A DNA stretch of 36,701 nt from Prochlorococcus sp. AG-412-P08 (lineage in GTDB: Bacteria > Cyanobacteriota > Cyanobacteriia > PCC-6307 > Cyanobiaceae), in NCBI GenBank assembly GCA_003214695.1, contig QCLI01000014.1, forward strand, positions 1 through 36,701. Direction: 5' to 3'. Shown piece by piece: positions 3,798-31,178 of the stretch. Numbering within the stretch: position 1 is the first letter of the stretch; every line of letters begins with the position of its first letter. Both the position numbers and the translations under genes were made by a program. The notes beneath the pieces are model-generated. The model was given only the letters and a program-made list of their open reading frames with translations, searched no databases and was not told where the DNA came from.

Positions 3798-3818
3798 AAG
3801 TTATGTTTTTACTTTTAC

Positions 3819-4544
3819 CTATTTAGATTTTTCAAGATTGCAATTAATATTAATTTCAAAGGGTATACAGCTATTAGGTAACTCAAGTATCTTCGAAACA
3901 ATTTCACCTATATCTTCAGGCTGAGTCATTTCTTCTTTTTTTATACTTTCAACTTCACTTGCCATTCGCGTATTTACCCAGCCTGGATTGATAGTGCTAA
4001 CCCTTAAACCTTTTTCCCATCCTTCATTCCTTATTGTTTGACATAGACCCATTAATGCAAATTTTGATGCAGTGTATCCAGCAAGCTTTCCTTTTGACCT
4101 TTTACCACTCATTGATACAAGAACTATAACCCTTGAATTATTGTTCTCAGTGAGATATTTCCAACAGGCCCTAGTAAGTATCCAAGGTCCCAATACATTA
4201 ACTTTCCATAATTCATTAATATCGTTCTCTTCCTTTTCAGCGTAATTCAATGGAGTTCTTTTAAATATTCCTGCACAGTGTATTAATGTATCAATCTTAC
4301 CAAATTTTTGCTTTGTTTTCTCAGCCCATAAATTTGCACTAATCTTATCTTTAGCGTCATAACTTTCAACATGTATACGCTCACTTTTTTTTGTTAGATA
4401 AGGAAGTTCTGAATTTTTAAGACATTTTATATCTCTTAAGCCAATACTTATATTGTGACCATCTTGAATTGCCTTTTCAGCAATGCATCTTCCTATCCCT
4501 CTTGAGGCCCCACTAATTAGAATGTTTCTCTTATCGCTAGACAC
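3819..4544 (-). CDS. Short-chain dehydrogenase/reductase (SDR)
   Basis: A 241-residue classical SDR. The nucleotide-binding motif SGASRGIG is at residues 11-18, the NAG-equivalent HCAGI at 89-93, the structural Asn in KVNVLG (about 114-119), and the catalytic Ser (about 144-146) with Y157-x3-K161 in GYTASKFALMG. NPGWVNTRMA (about 186-195) is the usual post-catalytic loop. Such enzymes reduce or oxidise carbonyl/hydroxyl groups with NAD(P)H in the cytoplasm; the substrate cannot be told. The start codon lies inside the last codons of the upstream lycopene cyclase (8-bp overlap), so the two are co-transcribed and probably translationally coupled. This hints at a role related to carotenoids, but that is inference. 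Confidence 0.85.
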   Translation of the reverse strand: MSSDKRNILISGASRGIGRCIAEKAIQDGHNISIGLRDIKCLKNSELPYLTKKSERIHVESYDAKDKISANLWAEKTKQKFGKIDTLIHCAGIFKRTPLNYAEKEENDINELWKVNVLGPWILTRACWKYLTENNNSRVIVLVSMSGKRSKGKLAGYTASKFALMGLCQTIRNEGWEKGLRVSTINPGWVNTRMASEVESIKKEEMTQPEDIGEIVSKILELPNSCIPFEININCNLEKSK

Positions 4545-5820
4545 TTGGCTTAAGGAAATTCCAAAGTAACTTTAACTCTCGACCTTTCATTTCCATCAAT
4601 CCCCACTTAACATTCATTGGAGCTTGTTTGAACATAGCCCACATGGCATTAACAAGTTCTTTTAAAGTTAAGGTATTAGTAAGAAATTTGTACCATTGAT
4701 TGTTTGATAGGCCAAAAAAACTTTTAAAGAAATATCTTAATTGCCCCTCTTTGAAGCGCATTAGTTTTTCTAATCCAAACTGATAGAGAGCTTGCTTCCT
4801 TCTCAATTCCTTAGGCCAAAGTGTTTGCCAACCTATTCTTGCAATTTCAGAAGGGGTGTTAGATTTGTCTTTAATTGCGTTTGCAATTTCTTTTGCTAGG
4901 GATGGCGCTCTTCTCAGCAGACTACCAACTAAATAGCCTGATGCTGGGTGAACCATTCCTGCAGCACCGCCAAACCCAAGAATTGATTGATTTAAATCTG
5001 GAATAGGAATGTTCATTGGCAAGAAGACGCCATGTTCTTCATGATCAATTTTTAAAATTTCTATTTCTCTATGTTTTAGTCTTGATTTAAGCCTTTGTTT
5101 AAGTGTTTCTAACTCAACAGGAGGTGCCAACCCTAAGGATGTTTCTTCTAGAAAGAATTTACCATTACCCATATCCATTGCATAAAGAAAAGTAGGTGGC
5201 TCTTCTTTTTCATTTTTATTTAAATGATCACACCTATAATCCATTAACACAAACTGGCCTTTTTCTACTGGCGGCTCACTGAATTCGCCCACTATTCCAT
5301 AACATGTTTGGACAGCTATCTCACCATGATTTGGAACACTGAGGAAAACTGGGTCATAACCTGTAGCATCTACTATTAGTTTTGAAATTAGGCTTTTACC
5401 ATCACTAGTTATAACAGTACTGTTTACTTTATTAATTTCAAATTTATTAGCCTTGCCCCTAAATAAATTCACAGAAGTATCTTTGCATTGATTTAGCCAA
5501 TACTCTTGAAGCTTCTTCTTGTCAAATAGGCCATAGTCACGATTGTGTCGAGTAGCTTGATTGTGAGGAGAATTTTTATCTGTAGAGCCTTCCCCTAAAA
5601 AACTAACTGTATTTGACCATCGATGTTTTAATAAATTTTCAAAACCTAATTCATCTACCTCTTCTCCCCAGATTCCGTATGTGTAAGGCCATGGATCAGA
5701 TGGATCATTTAATGAGAGTAGACCAACTTTAAGTTTTTCTTGGCCTAGTGCTGCTGCTATTGATAAGGCACTTGGTCCAGCTCCTATTACCAATACGTCC
5801 ATAGGTGAGTTTGTGCTCAT
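4537..5820 (-). CDS. crtL: Lycopene cyclase (CrtL type, beta or epsilon)
   Basis: A 427-residue FAD/NAD(P)-binding flavoprotein. The Rossmann motif VIGAGPSALSIAAAL is at residues 11-25. PYTYGIWGEEVDELG (about 45-59) matches the YG(V/I)W-x-(D/E)E motif of plant-type lycopene cyclases, and KFFLEETSLGLAPP (about 221-234) the cyclase F(L/F)EET motif. GFGGAAGMVHPASGYLV (about 283-299) is the conserved second FAD-contacting segment. The enzyme closes the ionone rings of lycopene at the thylakoid/cytoplasmic membrane, giving precursors of zeaxanthin or alpha-carotene. Prochlorococcus has two paralogues, a beta-cyclase and a bifunctional epsilon/beta-cyclase; I cannot say by eye which this is. First gene of a two-gene operon with the SDR. 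Confidence 0.88.
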   Translation of the reverse strand: MSTNSPMDVLVIGAGPSALSIAAALGQEKLKVGLLSLNDPSDPWPYTYGIWGEEVDELGFENLLKHRWSNTVSFLGEGSTDKNSPHNQATRHNRDYGLFDKKKLQEYWLNQCKDTSVNLFRGKANKFEINKVNSTVITSDGKSLISKLIVDATGYDPVFLSVPNHGEIAVQTCYGIVGEFSEPPVEKGQFVLMDYRCDHLNKNEKEEPPTFLYAMDMGNGKFFLEETSLGLAPPVELETLKQRLKSRLKHREIEILKIDHEEHGVFLPMNIPIPDLNQSILGFGGAAGMVHPASGYLVGSLLRRAPSLAKEIANAIKDKSNTPSEIARIGWQTLWPKELRRKQALYQFGLEKLMRFKEGQLRYFFKSFFGLSNNQWYKFLTNTLTLKELVNAMWAMFKQAPMNVKWGLMEMKGRELKLLWNFLKPSV

Positions 5821-6146
5821 GCTTATAAGAGCATGCTTGTTAGGTTAAACTTGCAAATGATAAATAACTTATTCAGCTTTTTAGACACGCTTACCTCCTA
5901 TTCTCATTGATTCTAAGAGGATAACCTGACTTGGTCTTTTAAATGACATTTGCAAAACTTTTATTTACTAGATGTAGCTATTATGTTGTTAAATATTGCA
6001 AATATTTTTTAAAAGAGTGCTATCCTTGGTCTATTAAGATTTAGAAACTAGTTCTTAACAAATAAGAGCTAGTTTGTGATTAACCTAAAATGGAATTTTT
6101 AATCAATGATTGAGTAAATTATATTTCTCTAACTAATTCACTTTTA
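5821..6146. other. Divergent intergenic spacer between crtL and a POR-like SDR
   Basis: 326 bp without an open frame of note, strongly AT-rich. It must hold the promoters of both divergent genes, although I could not assign convincing -35/-10 pairs. The one strong structure is a long hairpin at 6045-6075, listed separately. Confidence 0.6.
6045..6075. repeat. Long perfect hairpin (13-bp stem)
   Basis: AAACTAGTTCTTA (6045-6057) and TAAGAGCTAGTTT (6063-6075) pair over 13 positions, with one G-T wobble, around a 5-nt loop ACAAA. It lies 71 bp before the POR-like gene. No T-run follows on the plus strand, so it is not a classical terminator. It may be a 5'-UTR stem, part of a small RNA, or an operator. 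Confidence 0.6.
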
Positions 6147-7163
6147 ATGAAAACTAAAAATCAAAGAAGAATACTTATAACAGGGGCTACTTCTGGTATT
6201 GGTTATCAAGCTGCTCTTAAATTGATTGAGGATGATCAAAAACTAGTTATACTTTGTAGAAATTCTAAAAGAGTTGATTCCACCATTAAATCCTTAAGGA
6301 GTGAAAATATACCTCTTTCTAAAATTGAGAGATTGGCTAAATTTCCAATTGTTGACTTATCTGATTTAAACTCAATAGAAGAATTTACTGCTAAGGAACT
6401 TTCAAATAGTTGTAGAATAGATACACTTATTCTTAACGCAGGCCTTCAATATACTGGTTCTAAATTTATAAGAAGATCGAAGCAAGGAATAGAACTTACC
6501 TTTGCTGTTAATCACCTTAGTCACTATTATTTAGTTCAAAGGTTAATTCCTTTACTTAGAAAATCAGAATTCCCCAGGGTTGTAATTACTTCGTCAGAGG
6601 TTCACAATCCGAACTCTCCAGGAGGGAAAGTAGGAAAAAAAGCAGATCTTTCTGATCTTGCAGGGCTTAGAAAATCCCTGGACTTTGAAATGATAGATGG
6701 ATTCACCCCTTTTGATGCTGATAAAGCATATAAAGATAGCAAGTTATGTAATACTTTATTCTCAAAAGAACTATCACGTAGATTTTTAATAAATAATTTT
6801 AATATACCTGTTTTATGTTGGGCTCCAGGTTTAGTTATACCAACCACAAAAGAAGGATTCTTTAGATATAGTCGCAAATATAATGAGTTAGGGCAGATTT
6901 TATTTGCTTTTATAGCTAGAGATTTATTGCATATAACCGAGTCTCCACAGAATGCTGGTAAGATCCTATTTGATTTGGCAACTTTAGATTCCTACCAGGG
7001 AGAGAAGTTCTTATACCTGTCTAATAATATCAAAACATTAGGTCAAATGATTTTAAAGGAAAAAAATATTAGTAAAGAAGCAAATAATTCAACTAAGGCA
7101 GAAAATCTTTGGAATCTGTCTGGTGAAATAATCCAGAAATTTGTTACTATAAATCCATTTTAG
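6147..7163 (+). CDS. SDR of the protochlorophyllide-reductase-like group
   Basis: A 338-residue SDR, longer than classical members. The cofactor motif TGATSGIG is at residues 12-18. LNAGLQ (97-102) and FAVNHLSHYYL (119-129) follow, with catalytic SS at 149-150 and AYKDSKLCN at 194-202 (Y195, K199). The YKDSK-CN pattern and the segment LSRRF...PVLCWAPG strongly resemble light-dependent protochlorophyllide oxidoreductase (POR), which reduces ring D of protochlorophyllide. The POR active-site cysteine region differs from what I remember of true POR, and cyanobacterial POR is normally about 320-335 residues. I therefore call it POR-like, substrate uncertain. It is divergent from crtL and converges with the MscS gene (5 bp between stops). 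Confidence 0.72.
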   Translation: MKTKNQRRILITGATSGIGYQAALKLIEDDQKLVILCRNSKRVDSTIKSLRSENIPLSKIERLAKFPIVDLSDLNSIEEFTAKELSNSCRIDTLILNAGLQYTGSKFIRRSKQGIELTFAVNHLSHYYLVQRLIPLLRKSEFPRVVITSSEVHNPNSPGGKVGKKADLSDLAGLRKSLDFEMIDGFTPFDADKAYKDSKLCNTLFSKELSRRFLINNFNIPVLCWAPGLVIPTTKEGFFRYSRKYNELGQILFAFIARDLLHITESPQNAGKILFDLATLDSYQGEKFLYLSNNIKTLGQMILKEKNISKEANNSTKAENLWNLSGEIIQKFVTINPF

Positions 7164-7168
7164 TCAAA

Positions 7169-8188
7169 CTATTTTTTTGCAAGATGAATAGTCTGAGTGG
7201 GGAAAGCAAACTCTATTTCTTCTTTCTCAAATAGTCTCATTATTTCAAGATTAATTTTTTGTTGAGCATTCATTGCTAATAGGTAGTCATTTGTTGGAAT
7301 GTAGTATACCAATTCGAAATTTAGACTACATTCACCGAATTCTATAAAATGACATCTATCAAATAAGGCATTTTCTGTTTGATCTACAATTTGTTTTATA
7401 ATATTTGGGATTAATAACATTTGCGAGTAATTGGTGTCATAGGTAACCCCTATTTTATGGACTAATCGCCTTTGCTTCATTTCTGCATAGTTAGAAATAA
7501 CTCCATTTGTCAAATTACTATTACTCATAACAATTATTTCTCCATTAATGCTCCTCATTCTTGTAGATCTAACACCAACCCTTTCCACTTTTGCTAGAAC
7601 ACCATCGATATGAATAAATTGACCATTCTGAAAAGGCTTGTCTAAAAGTATAGTTATATATTCAAAGAATTCTTGAACAGGTTCTTTTAGTGCAAGGCCT
7701 GCACCAATTCCACCAGCACTTAAAAGAGCCCATATTGCTGCCATTTGTACGCCCATATTATTTAAGTAAAAAACAATCCCAATACTCCATATTATGGCCC
7801 TAAGCATTGGACTTAATGATTTGAGCATTGTACTAACAGCATCATCATTTATTCTCTCTGACCAGCTACTAACTAACCTAAGAAGTATTCTATTTATTAG
7901 CCTAACTATAAGAATAAGTAGGATTAATTTGAAAATTCCAGTTATACCTTCATTAAGACCAAAACTAGTTGTTTTTATTGCTAATATTCTCCATGAAGTA
8001 AAAGCACTAATAGAGATACCTAAAGGCTTAACTGTATCAAGTAGAACTTTGAGTATATAGTCATCTGTTTTGCTATTGGTTCGATGGACAACTTTTTTTA
8101 AAACACTGCTTAGAACTTTTGATCCGAAAACTGTAATTAAGCTTCCTAATATAAAGATGCAGCCAGAGCTGATTAACCTTGTGTACAT
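7169..8188 (-). CDS. mscS: MscS-family mechanosensitive ion channel
   Basis: A 339-residue membrane protein with an N-terminal helix (about 5-25), two further helices (about 55-105) and the pore-lining segment rich in Gly/Ala (ALLSAGGIGAGLALKEPVQEF, about 155-175), which is the TM3 signature of MscS. It continues with the beta domain: PFQNGQFIHIDGVLAKVERVGVRSTRMRS (about 187-215) is the conserved MscS sequence G-x-V-x-x-I-x-x-R-x-T-x-(I/L)-R. The C-terminal alpha/beta domain ends at about 335. These channels open under membrane tension and release solutes on hypo-osmotic shock. Start ATG at 8188. Confidence 0.88.
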   Translation of the reverse strand: MYTRLISSGCIFILGSLITVFGSKVLSSVLKKVVHRTNSKTDDYILKVLLDTVKPLGISISAFTSWRILAIKTTSFGLNEGITGIFKLILLILIVRLINRILLRLVSSWSERINDDAVSTMLKSLSPMLRAIIWSIGIVFYLNNMGVQMAAIWALLSAGGIGAGLALKEPVQEFFEYITILLDKPFQNGQFIHIDGVLAKVERVGVRSTRMRSINGEIIVMSNSNLTNGVISNYAEMKQRRLVHKIGVTYDTNYSQMLLIPNIIKQIVDQTENALFDRCHFIEFGECSLNFELVYYIPTNDYLLAMNAQQKINLEIMRLFEKEEIEFAFPTQTIHLAKK

Positions 8189-8330
8189 TCAATAGATAAG
8201 AAATTAACTTAATTTAAGTATGGCACCCAGATGCACGTTTAGCTATAAGCTGCTTTTTCTCGGCGAAATATCATAAGTGGAGTATTTCTTTTTCTAAACT
8301 TAGAAATTATCTCATTTTATTTTAAAGATA

Positions 8331-8951
8331 TTAGTTTTTAGTTCCTTTCACAATCCTGCTCAGCTCTCTAAAATTTGGATGCAGAGCTGTTTTACATAGC
8401 TCAAAGATGGCCGTCTCAGTTGTTGTAACTTGTATGCCTGATTGACTGAACCTTTTTATTGCTATCTCATGATCTACCCTTTTTCTACTCATAACTGAGT
8501 CTGCAATAACCTGTACATTAAAACCAATTCTATATAGATCAAAAGCACTTTGAAGAATACATATATGGGTTTCTAATCCAACTAATAAGATATTTTTTAT
8601 CTTTCTTGATTTTAATTCTTTTATCAGATCTTCACATTCAGCACAAGAGAAACTCATTTTAGAAATATTGATTAATTCATTACCTTTGAGAATCTCTTTA
8701 ACCGAATTCCCAAGTTTCTCTGGATTTTGCTCTGTAATATATTTTGCGACATTTAGGAAATCGCAGGCCTCAGAAATCTTAAGAATATTCATTTTCAATT
8801 CGTCACTATTAGAGATAGCACTTATTAATTTCTCTTGTACATCAATTATAATTAAAGCCGTATTTTTGATATCAAATAACCTATTCACTTGTGCATTTGA
8901 TTTCAAATTCCCCTTGGACTCTGAGCCAAATAAAATAGGACGATAGATCAT
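8331..8951 (-). CDS. Isochorismatase-family cysteine hydrolase
   Basis: A 206-residue alpha/beta hydrolase of the isochorismatase/nicotinamidase superfamily. The predicted catalytic triad is D37 (ALIIIDVQEKL), K98 (NISKMSFSC) and C131 (VGLETHICILQSAFDLY), each in its usual context, with GLETHIC matching the G-x-x-(T/S)-x-x-C nucleophile loop. The first 25 residues before the Rossmann-like strand are extra, and the true start may lie further in. Family members hydrolyse nicotinamide, isochorismate, carbamoyl-sarcosine and similar amides or ethers; the substrate is not predictable here. Divergent from the Fur-family regulator, with 66 bp between. Confidence 0.82.
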   Translation of the reverse strand: MIYRPILFGSESKGNLKSNAQVNRLFDIKNTALIIIDVQEKLISAISNSDELKMNILKISEACDFLNVAKYITEQNPEKLGNSVKEILKGNELINISKMSFSCAECEDLIKELKSRKIKNILLVGLETHICILQSAFDLYRIGFNVQVIADSVMSRKRVDHEIAIKRFSQSGIQVTTTETAIFELCKTALHPNFRELSRIVKGTKN

Positions 8952-8998
8952 CTCAGTTTTATGTACATAACATTCACTTTAAAGTATTTAAGGGCCAA

Positions 8999-9013
8999 AA
9001 TTACTACGTAATT
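8999..9013. promoter_or_regulatory. Palindrome between the hydrolase and Fur-family genes (possible operator)
   Basis: AATTAC-TAC-GTAATT has perfect 6-bp arms and ends 4 bp before the ATG at 9018. Its position in a short divergent promoter region suggests a regulator site. It does not match the Fur or Zur boxes I know, and AT-rich palindromes occur by chance. Confidence 0.3.
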
Positions 9014-9017
9014 AAGG

Positions 9018-9542
9018 ATGATTACCTGTTACAATCTATTTGCTCTTCTCGCATTAGCTTGTACTATTGAGAAAACCTTTGCTTCTGGTGTGAACTTAAA
9101 CGCAGGGTATTCATCTTTAGCCTCACCGCTTGAATTAGGACTACACAAAAGTGGTCTTCGTCTTACCCCTCAGCGTAAGAAAGTATTGGACTTGTTTCAA
9201 AGAATTGGCGGTGGCAATCATTTAAGCGCGGAAGAAGTCCATGCTCATCTTTTGCAGATGAAGTCTAGGGTTTCTCTGGCAACTATTTATCGCACACTTA
9301 GATTGTTAGTAAGAATGGGTTTTTTGCATGAATTGGAGCTTAGTGAAGGAGGGCATAGGTTTGAATTGTTAAGCAAAGATCACCCAGATCATCATCACTT
9401 GGTTTGCATAAATTGTGGAAGGACGGAAGAATTTGAAAGTGATGAAGTTGTTTCTGCAGGTCGCAAGGCAGCTGAAAACAAAGGCTTTAAATTAATTGAA
9501 TCAACCTTAAATGTTAGAGCCCTATGCCCCAAATGTATTTAA
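9018..9542 (+). CDS. Fur-family metalloregulator
   Basis: A 174-residue Fur/Zur/PerR-type repressor. The winged helix covers about 45-105 (LRLTPQRKKVLDLF, then VSLATIYRTLRLLVRMGFLHEL). The metal-binding dimerisation domain follows, with HHHLVCINCGRTEEF (126-139), Cys pairs C130/C133 and C170/C173 for structural zinc, and sensory-site candidates in GGHRFELLSKDHPDHHH. The first 24-40 residues are hydrophobic and unlike the family. A GTG at 9090 (residue 25) may be the true start: a promoter-like TTGCTC-16-TACTAT reads inside the extra segment (about 9039-9066). Fur, Zur and PerR cannot be separated by eye. It is convergent with arsS (13 bp between stops). Confidence 0.85.
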   Translation: MITCYNLFALLALACTIEKTFASGVNLNAGYSSLASPLELGLHKSGLRLTPQRKKVLDLFQRIGGGNHLSAEEVHAHLLQMKSRVSLATIYRTLRLLVRMGFLHELELSEGGHRFELLSKDHPDHHHLVCINCGRTEEFESDEVVSAGRKAAENKGFKLIESTLNVRALCPKCI

Positions 9543-9555
9543 TCCGAAGATGAGC

Positions 9556-10485
9556 CTATGTAAGCGACCCCCCACAACTTGATCCATTCCCGGCAGTGCA
9601 GCCAAAACAGTGACTATCTACAGTAATTTCTTTGCCTTGCATCAGGATATTTCCTTGAGATAAATCCCTTAGAGTTCTAGGAAATAAATTGCTTTTTACC
9701 CCTAATTGTTGATTGAAATCACAATCAAACAGATTACCTTGCCAGTCAACACTTAATGTACTTTTGCACATTACAGATTCAAGATTTTTAGAATTATGAT
9801 TACTCTCCAGCATGGATTGATAGCTATTTAATTTCCCTTCCTTTTGCAAATAATTTGAAAATCTGTTAATTGGCATATTTGTAAGAACAAGTAAATTATT
9901 AAATTCTATGCCGTACCTTTCTTTAAGAATATACTTATATTCTTTTTCTAGAGACTCTTGTGGAGGTGGTAAAAATGCACCTATCGGATTGTATACTAGG
10001 TCCAAACTTAGTGTTTCATCATTCTTACCATAACCTAATTTATTCAATATTCTTAATACATTAATACTTTTTCTAAATACATCTTTGCCTCGTTGCTTGT
10101 TTACATTTTCTTCTTCATAACATGGAAGAGATGCAATTATTGATACTTTTGCTTTAGCAAGATATTCAGGAAGATCCTGGTATCCAGGCTCATCAAGAAT
10201 TGTGAGATTACATCTGTCTATTATTTTTACACCTAATTTACAAGCTTCATTAACCAACTCTTTAAAAAGTGGGTGCATCTCCGGTGCACCGCCTGTTATG
10301 TCAAGAGTTTCAATAGCATAACTATTAATTACCTTTGGGATTAATGAAATATTCTTTGGATTCATCATCTCAGTTCTAAATGGACTTGCATTGACATGAC
10401 AGTGAAGACATGATTGGTTACATTTATAACCAAGATTCACTTGTAGAGTCTTTAGTCTTCCTCTTTTTATACTTGGGAAGTCCAT
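9556..10485 (-). CDS. arsS: Arsenosugar biosynthesis-type radical SAM protein (ArsS-like)
   Basis: A 309-residue radical SAM enzyme. The [4Fe-4S]/SAM motif C22-x3-C26-x2-C29 sits in GYKCNQSCLHCHVNASP, and LDITGGAPEMHP (about 60-71) is the GGxP-type SAM-binding segment. The C-terminal region holds further cysteines (MCKSTLSVDWQGNLFDCDFNQQ and HCFGCTAGNGSSCGG), the auxiliary cluster-like pattern typical of the ArsS (DUF3641) family. ArsS joins the SAM adenosyl moiety to methylated arsenic on the way to arsenosugars. The usual partner, the methyltransferase ArsM, is not in this window. Family assignment is from memory of its characteristic C-terminus. Confidence 0.8.
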   Translation of the reverse strand: MDFPSIKRGRLKTLQVNLGYKCNQSCLHCHVNASPFRTEMMNPKNISLIPKVINSYAIETLDITGGAPEMHPLFKELVNEACKLGVKIIDRCNLTILDEPGYQDLPEYLAKAKVSIIASLPCYEEENVNKQRGKDVFRKSINVLRILNKLGYGKNDETLSLDLVYNPIGAFLPPPQESLEKEYKYILKERYGIEFNNLLVLTNMPINRFSNYLQKEGKLNSYQSMLESNHNSKNLESVMCKSTLSVDWQGNLFDCDFNQQLGVKSNLFPRTLRDLSQGNILMQGKEITVDSHCFGCTAGNGSSCGGSLT

Positions 10486-10535
10486 ATTTACTATGTGTTC
10501 TTTCTATAGTTTAACCTATATATAAATATATAGCG

Positions 10536-11762
10536 CTAAGTATTATAAGTATCTGAATTTCTACTTCTTCTCTTGCAAAATTCTTTTATCCAACTCTTGT
10601 ATTGCTCTGGTCCTCTATTCATAACAATAGTAAACTTTAAGTTGTCTCTCTCATCTGTAATACCATCAAAGTTACCATCAATTGTTGAAGGTCTATATAC
10701 TTCTCCATAACTACTATCTACAAAAATGATCTGATTTTCCTTATTATAAGCTTCTCCTAACTTTTGAATAAGAGTTAAGAATCCTCTGTCGCTCCCTCCT
10801 CTTAACCAATGCTGGCTATGTTGATCTTTTGTAGAAGTGATAGTGTCACCTACACCGATAAGAGTTGGCATTTCATTATTGGGAACTTTGCTTTTACAGA
10901 GATCAATTAGTTTTTGAATCGTTTCAGGTGCATCCCTAACACTGAAATCCTCACCAAAAGGGTATTTACCTGTTCTGTTGAACACGTATTTATTTATTAG
11001 CACTATTAGACCTGCTTGTTTTAATGCACCTTTTATAATTAATTGAATGTCAGTAGTCCCTATATCTTCCGGAGTTGCATATTTAATAATCTCACTTTCA
11101 TCATGAGTTCCTAAATTTGGTGATATGTGTAAATAAAAAGAATTTTTCAACCCAGAAACCACTGAATAGTTAATCACCTCATCCATTACATTCTTCATTA
11201 TCAATTGAAGTCTTTTTTTGCTTTTTAGTTCACTGCCAACCATGCTGAATAAGCTATTTAAATTAATAGCAGGTGAGTACCTTGTATCGCAAACTGCTAT
11301 TTCAACTTCATTATCTATTTTTCCCTTTTCTACATTGGGAAAATTTCTAAGTAACTCTATGCTTAATAGATCTTTTATTTTTAGAGGGATTTTACTAAGA
11401 AATAGTCTTTCCTTTTTGCTTAAGCCTAATGTTTCCACATTCCCAAATCTATCTTGATATTCGATTCCACAAGCTGCTAATCCTGGCAAATAAAGACCTT
11501 TTTCTTTTGGAAGACTTTCTGATTCAAAGGCTCTTTCTATTATTCTGTTTACGCCTCTTTTTCCTTCATGTTCGCCACAAGTCAATACCGAAAACTCATC
11601 GCCAAGCTTTGAGACTTCCTCTACGTAACTTTTGTCTATTACCCTGTCGAGTGGGTTGCTAACCAAAGGAATGCATACGCCATCAATATCTTGGACAAAT
11701 AAGAGTTCTTTACATTTTAATAGTTTAGTGAAGGAGTCATCTATATTGCTTTTAAATAGCAT
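10536..11762 (-). CDS. stpA: Glucosylglycerol-phosphate phosphatase (StpA-like)
   Basis: A 408-residue protein that follows Synechocystis StpA closely along its length. LLFVQDIDGVCIPLVSNPLDR (about 20-40) holds the HAD-like DxD (D25, D27). LTCGEHEGKRGVNRIIE, KGLYLPGLAACGIEYQDR, FYLHISPNLGTHDE, GTTDIQLIIKGALKQAG, TLIGVGDTITS and RGGSDRGFLTLIQKLG are further conserved blocks. StpA removes phosphate from glucosylglycerol-phosphate to give the compatible solute glucosylglycerol. The synthase GgpS is not in the window. The start is ATG 11762, with AAAGG directly before it. Divergent from the G3P-dehydrogenase-like gene (180 bp). Confidence 0.83.
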   Translation of the reverse strand: MLFKSNIDDSFTKLLKCKELLFVQDIDGVCIPLVSNPLDRVIDKSYVEEVSKLGDEFSVLTCGEHEGKRGVNRIIERAFESESLPKEKGLYLPGLAACGIEYQDRFGNVETLGLSKKERLFLSKIPLKIKDLLSIELLRNFPNVEKGKIDNEVEIAVCDTRYSPAINLNSLFSMVGSELKSKKRLQLIMKNVMDEVINYSVVSGLKNSFYLHISPNLGTHDESEIIKYATPEDIGTTDIQLIIKGALKQAGLIVLINKYVFNRTGKYPFGEDFSVRDAPETIQKLIDLCKSKVPNNEMPTLIGVGDTITSTKDQHSQHWLRGGSDRGFLTLIQKLGEAYNKENQIIFVDSSYGEVYRPSTIDGNFDGITDERDNLKFTIVMNRGPEQYKSWIKEFCKRRSRNSDTYNT

Positions 11763-11942
11763 CCTTTATTAAGAGCAACTTCTATTAAATCAGACTAGCA
11801 TCTCAATTGCCTTGTATATATATACTAAGTAAATCTTATACGTTATTTCTTTGGATTTTTATATCTTCAATGCAATTAATTTTTAATACACTATACTTGA
11901 GATGATTCCTAGGCTAAATTTTTTATATTTTTAACTTTTCTG

Positions 11943-28111: not shown

Positions 28112-28473
28112 AGGGAAGAAAAATTGAATTTCTTTGATTAACTTGTATCAGTTATCCCATTAGTTGTAGGTGAATTAGGGACACATGTAGTTATTTTACG
28201 AGTTTCTATAGGCAAATCAATCTCTTTGACTGGATCTCTATTTGAGGTGTCCTACCTATTTCAAGAATGCGCTAGAAGCAATGGGAATTAGCTTTATTTT
28301 GAAGTAAAAAGAGCAAATAATATCATATAGTTAGAAGAGATTCTCTTCAAAGTTCTTTGAATTCTTTTGGTGCTGAAAGCTAACTTCCTTTGCCCAACTT
28401 CTGACTTTAATCGATAACTAGTAAGCAATGAATGTAATAAAAATACGACTAAGGTCTACTTATTCGATAGGAC
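28112..28473. other. Non-coding spacer left of the tRNA-Ser half-copy
   Basis: 362 bp, AT-rich, without a supportable gene. The only structure is a perfect 15-bp palindrome GAAGAGA-T-TCTCTTC at 28334-28348. Confidence 0.5.
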
Positions 28474-28530
28474 AGTTGGGGATTTAAACCCCCGAAGGAC
28501 TTGCACCCTTGCTAGTTTTCAAGACTATAG
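28474..28530 (-). pseudogene. tRNA-Ser 3'-half pseudogene (left att-like copy)
   Basis: 41 bp (28487-28527) are identical to the intact tRNA-Ser. The wider 28474-28530 has four mismatches, including loss of the T-loop TTC (TTTAAA in place of TTCGAA). The similarity stops just past the anticodon stem. The bases further 5' (GGATAG, about 28559-28564 on the minus strand) can pair with the 3' CTGTCC, so a tRNA-like fold is possible, but the D-arm is abnormal. Read as an integration scar or a dead tRNA. Confidence 0.7.
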
Positions 28531-28726
28531 ACGGTGCAGTGAAGCCAATTGATTACGGCTATCCTTTGAAGTGAAAAGACCGAGGGACAACCTCTAATGA
28601 TAAATGACTTTTTGACGCAAAATAACTCAGGTTTTTGATATTTACGTAAGTTTTATTCTTTTCGGTCAACTTTTGGTCACTAATTTATAAATAATGAGGT
28701 AATAATTATAATTAAATACCGCTTGC

Positions 28727-28748
28727 CTCTCCGTAGTGGAACGGAGAG
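28727..28748 (-). other. Hairpin overlapping the tRNA-Ser 3' end
   Basis: CTCTCCGT (28727-28734) and ACGGAGAG (28741-28748) make a perfect 8-bp stem with a 6-nt loop. On the minus-strand transcript the acceptor 3' strand of the tRNA takes part, so the trailer competes with the 5' acceptor strand. No T-run follows, so it is not a standard terminator. Confidence 0.5.
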
Positions 28749-28828
28749 TGGGGGATTCGAACCCCCGAAGGACTTGCACCCTTGCTAGTTTTCAAGACTA
28801 GAGCCATAAACCACTCGACCAACTCTCC
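28742..28828 (-). tRNA. tRNA-Ser (anticodon TGA)
   Basis: 87 nt on the minus strand including discriminator G. Acceptor GGAGAGT/ACTCTCC, D-arm GTCGAGTGGTTTATGGC, anticodon stem-loop CTAGT-CTTGAAA-ACTAG with TGA, a long variable arm (CAAGGGTGCAAGTCCTTC) typical of Ser, and T-arm GGGGGTTCGAATCCCCC. CCA is not encoded. It has its own promoter (28836-28865) and is flanked by the two half-copies. Confidence 0.95.
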
Positions 28829-28835
28829 ACTTCTG

Positions 28836-28865
28836 ATATTACAGGCTTGGTTCAGCAAAATTCAA
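28836..28865 (-). promoter_or_regulatory. Promoter of tRNA-Ser
   Basis: On the minus strand, TTGAAT (28865-28860) and TAATAT (28841-28836) are separated by 18 bp and lie 7 bp before the tRNA 5' end. The equivalent place next to the right half-copy (31080-31110) lacks the -10. Confidence 0.6.
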
Positions 28866-29033
28866 GCAATTACTTGAAATTTATGATTTTTGGGATATGT
28901 TGATTTTTAACTGCGGGTCAATTGGTAAGGGCAATCGGTCTACAACTAAACCGCCAATAATTCTGCTTGGTACTGACTGTCTTCTTTATATTAGTTGCTG
29001 GCTGACGAGTTTCCCTGTTCATCTAGAGGTCGC

Positions 29034-29159
29034 ATGGCTCGGAACAAAGTTCTGTACTCCAATAGGAATGGTCTAAAAGGAAACAGGGTTTCTGTTGCAC
29101 CTTACCGAACAGTTGCTCAGGTAGAGGAACAAATTATCAACGGTTGCGCAAAATTTTAA
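29034..29159 (+). CDS. Small hypothetical protein (41 residues) within the island
   Basis: ATG 29034 is preceded by AGAGG with 4 nt between. The 41-residue product (begins MARNKVLYSNRNGLKGNRV, ends INGCAKF) is basic at the start and looks like ordinary coding sequence (Arg, Val, Glu and Ala spread, no repeats). A second frame (28897-29076, 59 residues, Cys/Leu-rich) overlaps it and is less convincing. No family recognised. Between the tRNA and the outer-membrane gene, so possibly an element gene. Confidence 0.4.
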   Translation: MARNKVLYSNRNGLKGNRVSVAPYRTVAQVEEQIINGCAKF

Positions 29160-29439
29160 AACTTCTACTGAGGAGAAGGGCTAGTATTATAAATTGATCC
29201 GACAAGGATATATAAGGTACAAGAGTAAACAGGTAAGTTGTAGAAACAATGGAAAGTTGAATGCAATAGAAGGAATGAAAATTGTGAATGTCTATTCCAA
29301 ATAATTAACTAAACAGTAGAGATCTTGAAAAAAAAAGAAGTTTAGCTTTAGAACTACTTTAATAGAATTAACCTTCGAGACGTTACTTGTCTTAAGCTCG
29401 AATATTGTTTAGTATGATAATGATTCTTCTTTGTATAAG

Positions 29440-30531
29440 ATGGGTCTACATATTTTAAAAAAACTCATATTAATAGGTGTAGTTCTTCCAGGATCTATTC
29501 AGGATGTTTTTGCATATGAGGAAGAAGCTTATATTGCTTTGAAAGGAAATAATAATTACTACAAGGAAATTAATTTAAATAGAAATCTCACAAATGATTC
29601 ATATGCTTTCCTCAAAGAATACTCTATGAATGAAAATCATAATAAATATATTGTTAAGGTAGAGAATAGCTATTCCTTGAGGCCTAATCCAAATAGATTA
29701 AATACCATAGATTCTAAGCTTTCATTAATTGACCATGAAGATAATTCATACGATTTCTTAAAACAATTATCTACAAATCAGGCAATAAAGGAAGCTGATT
29801 TCAGTGCAAAGGACAATGAATTAATACCAGAAAGATTAGGAACAAATTATCGCAATAAGCCTCTTTTGAAGAAAAAATCAAGAAAGAATAATAGGAATAA
29901 TATTTATATAGCAGCAAAAGGAGGAGGGATAGTGCCAGCTAATTTAAGAGGTGAGAATCTGGCTGATTTTGGGTGGTTTGGTCATCTTTTTGATATAGAG
30001 GCAGACTTGAAAGCAGGAAAAACTTATGGATTGTCAATAGGTAAGAAATTAAATAGATGGAGACTGGAAGGATCAATAACCCAAGGGGAAATAGCTTTAG
30101 CGAAAACAATGAATGCTTCTACCTATTTTGGTTATGTAGCAACTGAAATCCCCAAAAAAACTAATTTAAAAATTAATTCATACATGTTAAACCTGTTTAG
30201 GGATATAAAGTTTAATAGTACCAATAAGGTCTATCCTTATCTAGGAGTTGGGGCTGGAATACATGATATAAAACTAGATCCATTGGAATTTGATCTAGAT
30301 ATTGGTGGTAATTATAATTTTTCTAGATTTTCAAATGTATTATTTGGATATAATTTAAAAGGTGGCATTAATTATGAACTTACTAAAAGATACTCGATGT
30401 TTACTGAGGCTTCCTTCAACAGAATAAATTCATTCGATTTAGGAAGTCCCCAAAGTGGTACTCGAGACTATGTAAGAATACATCCTATAAAATATGTAAA
30501 TTTAATGACTGGAATTAGATATGATTTTTAG
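29440..30531 (+). CDS. Outer-membrane beta-barrel protein
   Basis: 363 residues from ATG 29440; TTG 29431 is also open. The N-terminus LHILKKLILIGVVLPGSIQDVFA is a signal peptide with an A-x-A-like cut at about residue 23. Residues 25-150 are hydrophilic and disordered, rich in Asn, Ser and Lys. From about 155 (NNIYIAAKGGGIVPANLRG) the sequence is made of amphipathic strands alternating with loops, ending in YDF with the C-terminal aromatic residue of outer-membrane barrels. YPYLGVGAGIHDI and FGYNLKGGINYELT are typical of OmpA/opacity-type 8-strand barrels. Its function (adhesion, phage receptor or other) is unknown. It lies inside the tRNA-Ser island and may be cargo. Confidence 0.7.
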   Translation: MGLHILKKLILIGVVLPGSIQDVFAYEEEAYIALKGNNNYYKEINLNRNLTNDSYAFLKEYSMNENHNKYIVKVENSYSLRPNPNRLNTIDSKLSLIDHEDNSYDFLKQLSTNQAIKEADFSAKDNELIPERLGTNYRNKPLLKKKSRKNNRNNIYIAAKGGGIVPANLRGENLADFGWFGHLFDIEADLKAGKTYGLSIGKKLNRWRLEGSITQGEIALAKTMNASTYFGYVATEIPKKTNLKINSYMLNLFRDIKFNSTNKVYPYLGVGAGIHDIKLDPLEFDLDIGGNYNFSRFSNVLFGYNLKGGINYELTKRYSMFTEASFNRINSFDLGSPQSGTRDYVRIHPIKYVNLMTGIRYDF

Positions 30532-30623
30532 CAAATTAGATAAAATTATATGAGTTTTATTGTTCTAAGGTTAGATAATAGAATTCCAAGATTATACTTA
30601 GAGCCAATTCTTCTAGGACAAAT

Positions 30624-30863
30624 CTAGATATCCGTTCTCTTATATTTAGTGGCATCTCCATTAGGAAAAGTTCCACGGATAACAATTGTATCTTTAACTA
30701 TTTCTAGGCTGGCTTTATGACCACGAAAATGAAGGTCTTTGTTGGTTACGTCAATTAACGCTTGGGTCTTCCTCCGGTGAGAAGCCAACTGTTCTTGGTA
30801 TTGGTCTTCAGAACCAGAGCTGTTTTGAGAACGTCGATGGTTTAGTTGACCGCTATTGACCAC
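30624..30863 (-). pseudogene. Truncated tyrosine-integrase N-terminal remnant
   Basis: 79 residues from GTG 30863. The part SHRRKTQALIDVTNKDLHFR then LEIVKDTIVIRGTFPNGDATKYKR resembles the N-terminal arm-binding region of cyanobacterial tyrosine integrases (long helix, then a strand with the pattern L-R-G-T-x-P, then a basic segment). It stops before any catalytic domain; the R-H-R-Y residues are absent and no continuation is seen in the other frames just downstream. It lies next to three TTGACC-type repeats and the right half-copy, as integrase genes do. The match is by eye and the frame could be an unrelated small protein. Confidence 0.4.
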
Positions 30864-30893
30864 TATCAGAAAAATGAACCAAGGTTGACCACT
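30846..30893 (+). repeat. Three TTGACC(A/G)CT direct repeats
   Basis: TTGACCGCT (30846-30854), TTGACCACT (30856-30864) and TTGACCACT (30885-30893). They lie at the start of the integrase-like frame. GGTCAA and GGTCAC also occur at 28664-28669 and 28675-28680, near the other end of the island. Possible arm-type integrase sites. Confidence 0.5.
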
Positions 30894-31028
30894 TTTTTAT
30901 AAAACCATATAAAAAATTGCTTGAAAACTGTTGAAGTTGAGAATCTTATAAACGTAGTTATATCTTGATTTTGCTAGCTATATCAGTGCTTCTGGGCGTT
31001 TTCTAAAATTCCTTTTGAAGTTCGCCGG

Positions 31029-31127
31029 TAGTTTTCAAGACTAGAGCCATAAACCACTCGACCAACTCTCCACCTTTGACTTTGCCGAATAAGACAGCTA
31101 AATTACAAGTTAATTACTTGAAATTTA
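31029..31127 (-). repeat. tRNA-Ser 5'-half copy with promoter flank (right att-like copy)
   Basis: 45 bp (31029-31073) are identical to 28786-28830, from the anticodon loop through the 5' end of the tRNA. Beyond that the flank remains similar to 28831-28883, with AATTACTTGAAATTTA conserved at 31112-31127. The 3' half is absent. The promoter -10 is not kept here, so transcription is doubtful. Confidence 0.8.
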
Positions 31128-31178
31128 GAACTTTCAGCTTAAGTTGCTTTTAAAGACTAACTTGAATGTCACGATGTG

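Follow-up and report, generated by a model that had tools for sequence, protein, structure and literature searches.

A complete tRNA-Ser gene between the displaced halves of another: a probable integrated element of Prochlorococcus that brings its own tRNA

The tRNA-Ser(UGA) locus

The DNA analysed here, referred to as the window, is the whole of a 36,701-nucleotide contig (C14, QCLI01000014.1) of Prochlorococcus sp. AG-412-P08 (assembly GCA_003214695.1), a 1.55-Mb genome in 52 contigs that is 82.8% complete and belongs to a genus, g1, of 14 genomes. ARAGORN finds a sole tRNA gene in it, a tRNA-Ser(UGA) at 28741–28829 on the minus strand (b in Table 1). BLAST with this complete tRNA locates a copy of its 3′ half (a) at 28470–28530 (92% over 61 nt, E = 3.7e-19) and a copy of its 5′ half (c) at 31029–31079 (96%, E = 8.3e-18), the first 44 nt of which are 100% identical to the complete gene. 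The sequence TAGTTTTCAAGACTA occurs exactly at 28513, 28786 and 31029, which puts the three tRNA-Ser pieces far beyond chance. These pieces had been listed in an original prediction made from the letters of the window, and ARAGORN, BLAST and the exact core matches show its coordinates to be right within a few bases. The 3′ half lies 273 bp to the left of the complete tRNA and the 5′ half 2,243 bp to its right, where it runs on into homologous upstream flank to about position 31155. The two halves overlap only in the 15 bp of the anticodon stem/loop, TAGTTTTCAAGACTA, and jointly they make up exactly one tRNA.

The 2,531 bp from 28513 to 31043 are probably one integrated, now non-autonomous element of a tyrosine-recombinase family that targets the anticodon arm of tRNA-Ser(UGA) and brought the complete gene b with it, about 230 bp inside its left end. 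The observations that carry this reading are the layout of the pieces, the empty sites in relatives, a complete gene of foreign type within the element of G004, c flanks of native appearance in the elements of g56, the integrase of a related element in G006, and the way in which a and c mostly change together. The original prediction also saw here the trace of a tRNA-targeting tyrosine-recombinase element; the locus does look so, and the interpretation given there is supported in part.

Table 1 Features of the element and its tRNA pieces in the window
Feature	Position	Strand	Basis or remark
(a) Displaced 3′ half of the original host tRNA-Ser(UGA)	28468..28527	-	Partly decayed; ends in the att core; 92% match over 61 nt
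att core, copy a (left junction)	28513..28527		TAGTTTTCAAGACTA, anticodon stem/loop
Left arm of the element	28528..28740		213 bp; alignable across elements of two genera (192–214 bp)
Putative arm-type site	28664..28678	-	GGTCAACTTTTGGTC (inverse of GACCAAAAGTTGACC); TTGACC/GGTCAA enrichment in left arms
(b) Complete tRNA-Ser(UGA), read as element-borne	28741..28829	-	ARAGORN; comparisons of the G004 body and the g56 flanks
Core sequence within b	28786..28800
Cargo open reading frame (ORF)	29431..30531	+	366 aa
Integrase gene, 5′ stub	30636..30863	-	First ~72 codons, remainder missing (ORF 30624–30863)
Right arm	30829..31028		Putative arm-type sites TTGACC at 30846, 30856 and 30885
att core, copy c (right junction)	31029..31043
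(c) Displaced 5′ half of the original host tRNA-Ser(UGA)	31029..31072	-	44/44 identical; flank homologous to the G006 c flank

Occupied and empty sites in related genomes

A tally was made of those genomes, among 400 sampled from the family, that match positions 28501–28829 of the window at E ≤ 1e-30. This choice gave 43 genomes (six from g1, G362 and 36 further ones), and genomes with only a type-II tRNA-Ser (see below) fall outside it because of the query. In G001 and G003 the same left flanking genes and, on the right, a class II ribonucleotide reductase (RNR) enclose one uninterrupted tRNA-Ser. Among the 36 further loci, 29 have a single tRNA only, six have all three pieces and one (G289) has an a-like fragment without c. 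The tally is then nine genomes with a–b–c, one with c only (G362), two with an a-like copy only (G010 and G289) and 31 with neither. A missed a or c is conceivable in four of these 31: G349 (L117), which ends 0.5 kb to the right of the tRNA, G365 (L180), which is without its left side, and G013 (L038) and G077 (L110), where no RNR lies to the right within the stretch. The co-occurrence of a and c has a Fisher p of 9e-7, or 1.3e-5 with G260 counted as c only, relatedness being ignored in both. In G006, where the counterpart of copy a is undamaged, the left flank matches that of the window and the RNR is on the same contig, ~24 kb beyond c; between them, at the same tRNA, lies a 9.0-kb version of the element. 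Both searches that the original prediction had proposed therefore gave a positive result: an uninterrupted tRNA-Ser is found at the same locus in relatives (G001, G003 and the further family loci), and G006 has a larger element that includes an integrase and occupies that tRNA.

The G168 genome is one contig, and that of G154 is in 7 contigs at 99% completeness, which makes a chimera artefact unlikely for these two. On a tree of the RNR (IQ-TREE, 23 rows; L034, L110 and L117 have no RNR in the stretch and are left out), the a–b–c label requires six gains or losses, at least five of them forced by well-supported branches, and is no more clustered than after shuffling (138 of 500 shuffles were as low). 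A scan of named genomes with the exact a–b pattern found it in AG-436-C13 and AG-311-D23 only, and the pattern is so strict that decayed copies escape it, with 3 of the 400 family genomes found against nine by alignment; a DNA search with the spacer alone matched 2 of the 14 genomes of the genus and missed G004.

Partial tRNA copies can also arise by duplication, as is generally known, and the locus could in principle be the debris of tandem duplication or gene conversion around the tRNA with no mobile element involved. We consider this highly improbable. Against it stand the empty sites, which have the flanking genes of the occupied ones, together with the integrase stub of the window and the full integrase of G006. 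As described below, the cores are also chimeric, the ends carry motifs, and the cargo varies between ends that stay the same. The explanation was rejected on the empty sites and the integrase stub, and also on the G006 element.

The two ends of the element

The spacing from a to b is 252–274 bp in two genera, and the left arm between them can be aligned from one genus to the other. For g56, the match score of this arm is 159–286 among element-bearing loci and 33–92 for other loci. The hexamer TTGACC is enriched at both ends of the nine elements. It occurs eight times in the left arms against 0.54 expected (maximum 3 in 500 mononucleotide shuffles), 13 times in the right arms against 0.60 expected (maximum 4 in 500), and 10 times in the 28.1 kb of element interior. 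All of the left-arm sites are on one strand and all of the right-arm sites on the other. We infer that arm-type integrase sites flanking an attP core would be arranged in this way.

The original prediction had explained the three pieces by two integrations, possibly nested, of which the left one would now be about 270 bp and the right one 2.2 kb. In that case a 3′-replacing and a 5′-replacing element would have entered one tRNA separately, and each side taken alone does resemble a conventional tRNA-integrated island. Conventional 5′-type layouts with related integrases exist, with distal 5′ halves in G031, G393 and G374 and also in G362; islands with a 5′ fragment are known, though rare, in the Islander account (159 of 3919; PMC4383910); and in G010 and G289 an a-like copy stands with no c. 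Against this stand the finding of a and c together in nine of the 43 genomes and of one alone in three, the spacing of 252–274 bp in two genera, and the enrichment of the same hexamer at both ends. In G004, moreover, the outer halves resemble a single host tRNA, with b of another type; a two-step history there would have passed through a tRNA whose acceptor-stem halves do not match, as judged by eye from the sequences. This points to one element with a complete tRNA of its own. Two separate integrations are not the better reading; we regard them as unlikely and rank them second, since for the most part a, the left arm and c go together.

Origin of the three pieces

Copies a, b and c of the window are of one tRNA type, and the element of G004 is more informative. 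Its inner complete gene (b) is of type I, and its outer 3′ half (a) is much nearer to the type-II tRNA-Ser of G002, G003 and G011 (39–40 of 45 positions) than to type I (30–32 of 47). The outer 5′ half (c) is slightly nearer to type II (26–27 of 29) than to type I (25–26 of 30). The junction cores of G004 are hybrid: c reads TAG...ACCA, a ends in ACTA, and the native type-II gene reads TGG...CCA. Core c therefore has the left side of the element and the right side of the host, and core a has the right side of the element. Hybrid cores of this kind place the exchange within the anticodon arm. In all six g56 elements the sequence upstream of c is nearer to empty sites than to b (marginally in L109, 0.64 against 0.62), and the b flanks resemble each other and differ from those of empty sites.

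The two genomes with an a-like copy and no c were compared with what a loss by recombination between b and c would leave. G010 is a nearer comparison for the c flank of G006 than the two empty sites: its upstream flank matches the G006 c copy at 51 of 57 positions, b at 45–46 of 57 and the window c at 42; its spacer scores of 86, 80 and 62 compare with shuffle maxima of 68, 63 and 61. It fits such a b × c loss, on a contig that is short and ends 3.9 kb to the right. G289 resembled a scar of this kind, but both of its b flanks are native-like and its spacer is weak. At 2850–2935 of this locus (L172, G289:C2) there is a decayed fragment like a 3′ half. Its core and the core of an intact tRNA, itself in native-like flanks, are 246 bp apart; no 5′ half is present, and the locus fits the one-element model only loosely.

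The integrase and its relatives

The G006 element has, adjoining c, a tyrosine recombinase of 402 aa. It matches PHROG integrases (best E = 3.6e-13) and PF00589 (E = 8.5e-6, 26.1 bits, the cut-off being 27.1); nothing matched in NCBIfam, and a PDB sequence search returned no significant hit. The stub in the window is 71–72% identical to residues 1–72 of this protein. A stub in G004 stops at the same residue as that of the window and has a break near residue 31.

Relatives of the integrase (E ≤ 1e-30) are found in 25 of the 400 family genomes, with 29 matches. In the 20 stretches around them that were analysed, covering 21 of the 29 matches, the tRNA is tRNA-Ser(UGA) in 15 and tRNA-Arg(CCU) in three, and in two no tRNA was found. 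The three are L073, L074 and L078, where the related integrases adjoin tRNA-Arg(CCU) and not tRNA-Ser. At L086 (G374:C1), a complete tRNA with an integrase beside it is ~8.7 kb away from two 5′-half copies of tRNA-Ser (17916 and 18083) and one shorter fragment; these partial copies are likely the scars of repeated integration.

The closest integrase, 67% identical, is that of G362, which has the conventional layout with a 5′ half only, so that a single integrase group includes both half-replacing and whole-carrying forms. This bears on how the complete tRNA came to be inside the element. Two conventional elements may once have stood in tandem, with the outermost cores later moving the whole block including the tRNA, a history that would account for both the origin of the internal gene and the present behaviour as one unit, and that is suggested by the purely conventional 5′-type layout of G362. 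With its 213 bp, the left arm is not long enough for a second element to be seen in it. We hold this composite history to be possible but doubtful; it concerns origin, and on present function it agrees with the single element proposed above.

Cargo and neighbouring islands

The cargo varies between the same ends. The window and G004 share an ORF resembling outer-membrane proteins, G006 has a set of replication and recombinase genes, and the g56 elements have small ORFs or one of 814 aa. The match of the window ORF to outer-membrane beta-barrels is weak and below the curated cut-off. Its copy in the G004 element (L035, 5308–6396) is 81% identical in amino acids, and the two differ by 69 nonsynonymous and 14 synonymous codons spread evenly over codon positions, the frame staying open for 362 codons. 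From these codon counts, our reading is that the ORF may be under relaxed or diversifying selection. Paralogues at 41–44% are present elsewhere in both genomes. A conserved cargo ORF of 115–116 aa (MASNFYIVHHEFRAGTSSKWWE...) is seen in five of the six g56 elements (L104, L105, L106, L108 and L109).

The G006 element (L034, G006:C3, reverse strand, 3804–11840) also encodes a second tyrosine recombinase of 192 aa, a Prim-Pol/PriCT-2/AAA_25 protein of 750 aa, and a 98-aa helix-turn-helix (HTH) protein, the best PHROG match of which is a small terminase (E = 7.3e-6), followed by excisionases. Apart from this small-terminase match, the seven ORFs that were searched gave no phage structural family, and three of them had no PHROG match; the ORFs of 83 and 94 aa were outside that search. 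Further material lies beyond the elements on the right. In G004 (L035, 7441–10598) a stretch of ~3.5 kb on the right side of c contains three ORFs and has no nucleotide match in the window, and in G006 (G006:C3, 45475–69922) the ~24 kb between c and the RNR, compared with 2.5 kb in the window, form a further island.

Discussion

Several points count against the reading of one element with its own tRNA. Copy a is recognisable by BLAST in only six of the nine elements (G000, G006, G004 at 77%, G168, G312 and G200); G233 and G154 match only the core region of a, and in G260 (L105) a is seen only by alignment together with its arm, core a being placed from that alignment. An a-like copy lacks its c at two loci (G010 and G289), and at one (G362) c lacks its a. 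The outer flank of a is clearly nearer to empty sites in only two of the nine. In g1 the c flanks are nearer to the b flanks (window 0.73, G006 0.76, G004 0.54) than to the two empty sites (0.56, 0.64 and 0.50), and the c flank of G004 is only weakly nearer to type-II genes. As its three pieces share one tRNA type, the window alone cannot separate the models. Only five of the nine elements have TTGACC in both arms, G168 having none, and the six g56 elements have no match to the G006 integrase. The RNR tree is that of one gene, which may itself be recombined. Finally, scans of viral contigs and a search of phage records gave no free or packaged form (in one scan eight stretches matched a pattern, none of which was confirmed), and a free attP was not found in the viral contigs.

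On the reading that we prefer, a recombinase would join attP to the anticodon arm of the host gene, with strand exchange in the anticodon loop by an integrase of the G006 type and with the TTGACC arm sites, in opposite orientations at the two ends, as probable integrase sites. Because the attP core comprises only the 15-bp anticodon stem/loop, integration would leave the host gene in two useless pieces, a 3′ half (a) and a 5′ half (c). The tRNA is not rebuilt at the junctions: b is the one tRNA that ARAGORN finds in the window, and c yields none in G168, G154 or G200. The complete tRNA-Ser(UGA) just inside the left arm would replace the lost function, on the assumption that b is expressed and needed. 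Recombination between a and c should restore the host gene exactly, and recombination between a and b or between b and c would still leave one complete tRNA. As most of its integrase gene has been lost, the window element would need a recombinase in trans. When all ten tRNA matches of G168 were scanned, b was the only one with the anticodon UGA; b being the sole UGA isoacceptor there, its loss should be lethal unless the host gene is restored. That the gene is single-copy is taken from G168, the window genome being incomplete. The acceptor stems of type-I and type-II tRNA-Ser differ, so that half-replacement between such diverged tRNAs would leave mismatched acceptor stems; carriage of the whole gene avoids this, which we suggest as the reason for it.

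The closest parallel is the tRNA-dependent lysogeny described for actinobacteriophages (Fionnbharth, LeBron, Gaia and others) by Guerrero-Bustamante and Hatfull (mBio 2024, PMC10865867). As set out there, those phages have a tyrosine integrase with attB in a tRNA gene, a common core too short to rebuild the tRNA (8–17 bp) and a complete cognate tRNA of their own, and their related integrases include half-rebuilding as well as whole-carrying forms. The same is seen here, with the G006 protein as integrase and a core of 15 bp. Unlike those temperate phages, the elements here are of 2.5 kb (window) and 9.0 kb (G006) and were not recognised as such from the seven G006 ORFs searched; their tRNA is at a fixed place ~230 bp from the left end, and the need for b is presumed. 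By analogy, the element would work like tRNA-dependent lysogeny, in an element without recognised phage structural genes. The same account mentions prophage Lj965 of Lactobacillus johnsonii, which reportedly integrates without rebuilding the tRNA and encodes the cognate tRNA (PMC10865867); unlike the element here, it is a prophage of Lactobacillus. In conventional islands in tRNA genes, as catalogued with Islander (PMC4383910), an intact tRNA and a displaced fragment mark the island end, as they do here; in contrast to those islands, the element stands between two displaced halves and holds the intact gene within it, which departs from the conventional form.

A comparison closer in host is also at hand. 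The tycheposons of Prochlorococcus, a term that goes back to Hackl et al. 2023, are said to be picocyanobacterial islands in tRNA genes with a deep-branching tyrosine recombinase, hallmark genes and variable cargo. The element here would share with them the picocyanobacterial host, a site in a tRNA gene (tRNA-Ser(UGA)), a tyrosine recombinase and variable cargo. Tycheposons are described as integrating at one of seven tRNA genes (PMC10872708). In a limited literature search, with the primary description of tycheposons outside its reach, no element carrying a whole tRNA was recognised in Prochlorococcus, which is a weak negative.

Self-rescue by an element's own replacement tRNA is already known from some viruses of other bacteria, and the authors of the actinobacteriophage work state that its reach beyond those phages needs further study (PMC10865867). 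The present locus would offer a comparative case outside them, in Prochlorococcus, with elements that are not recognised as phages, repeated gain or loss at one locus and, in G004, an element tRNA of a different type from that of the host gene it split. In practice, island finders that look for a single fragment to go with each intact tRNA would set the ends of this element in the wrong place. If only the 15-bp anticodon arm has to match, such elements could enter hosts with diverged acceptor stems. We tentatively suggest that small non-phage elements of picocyanobacteria use a whole essential tRNA as a licence for integration and may be partly behind the alternation of tRNA-Ser types across Prochlorococcus lineages; if this is true, a × b or b × c recombination could leave the element's tRNA-Ser as the only copy of the host.

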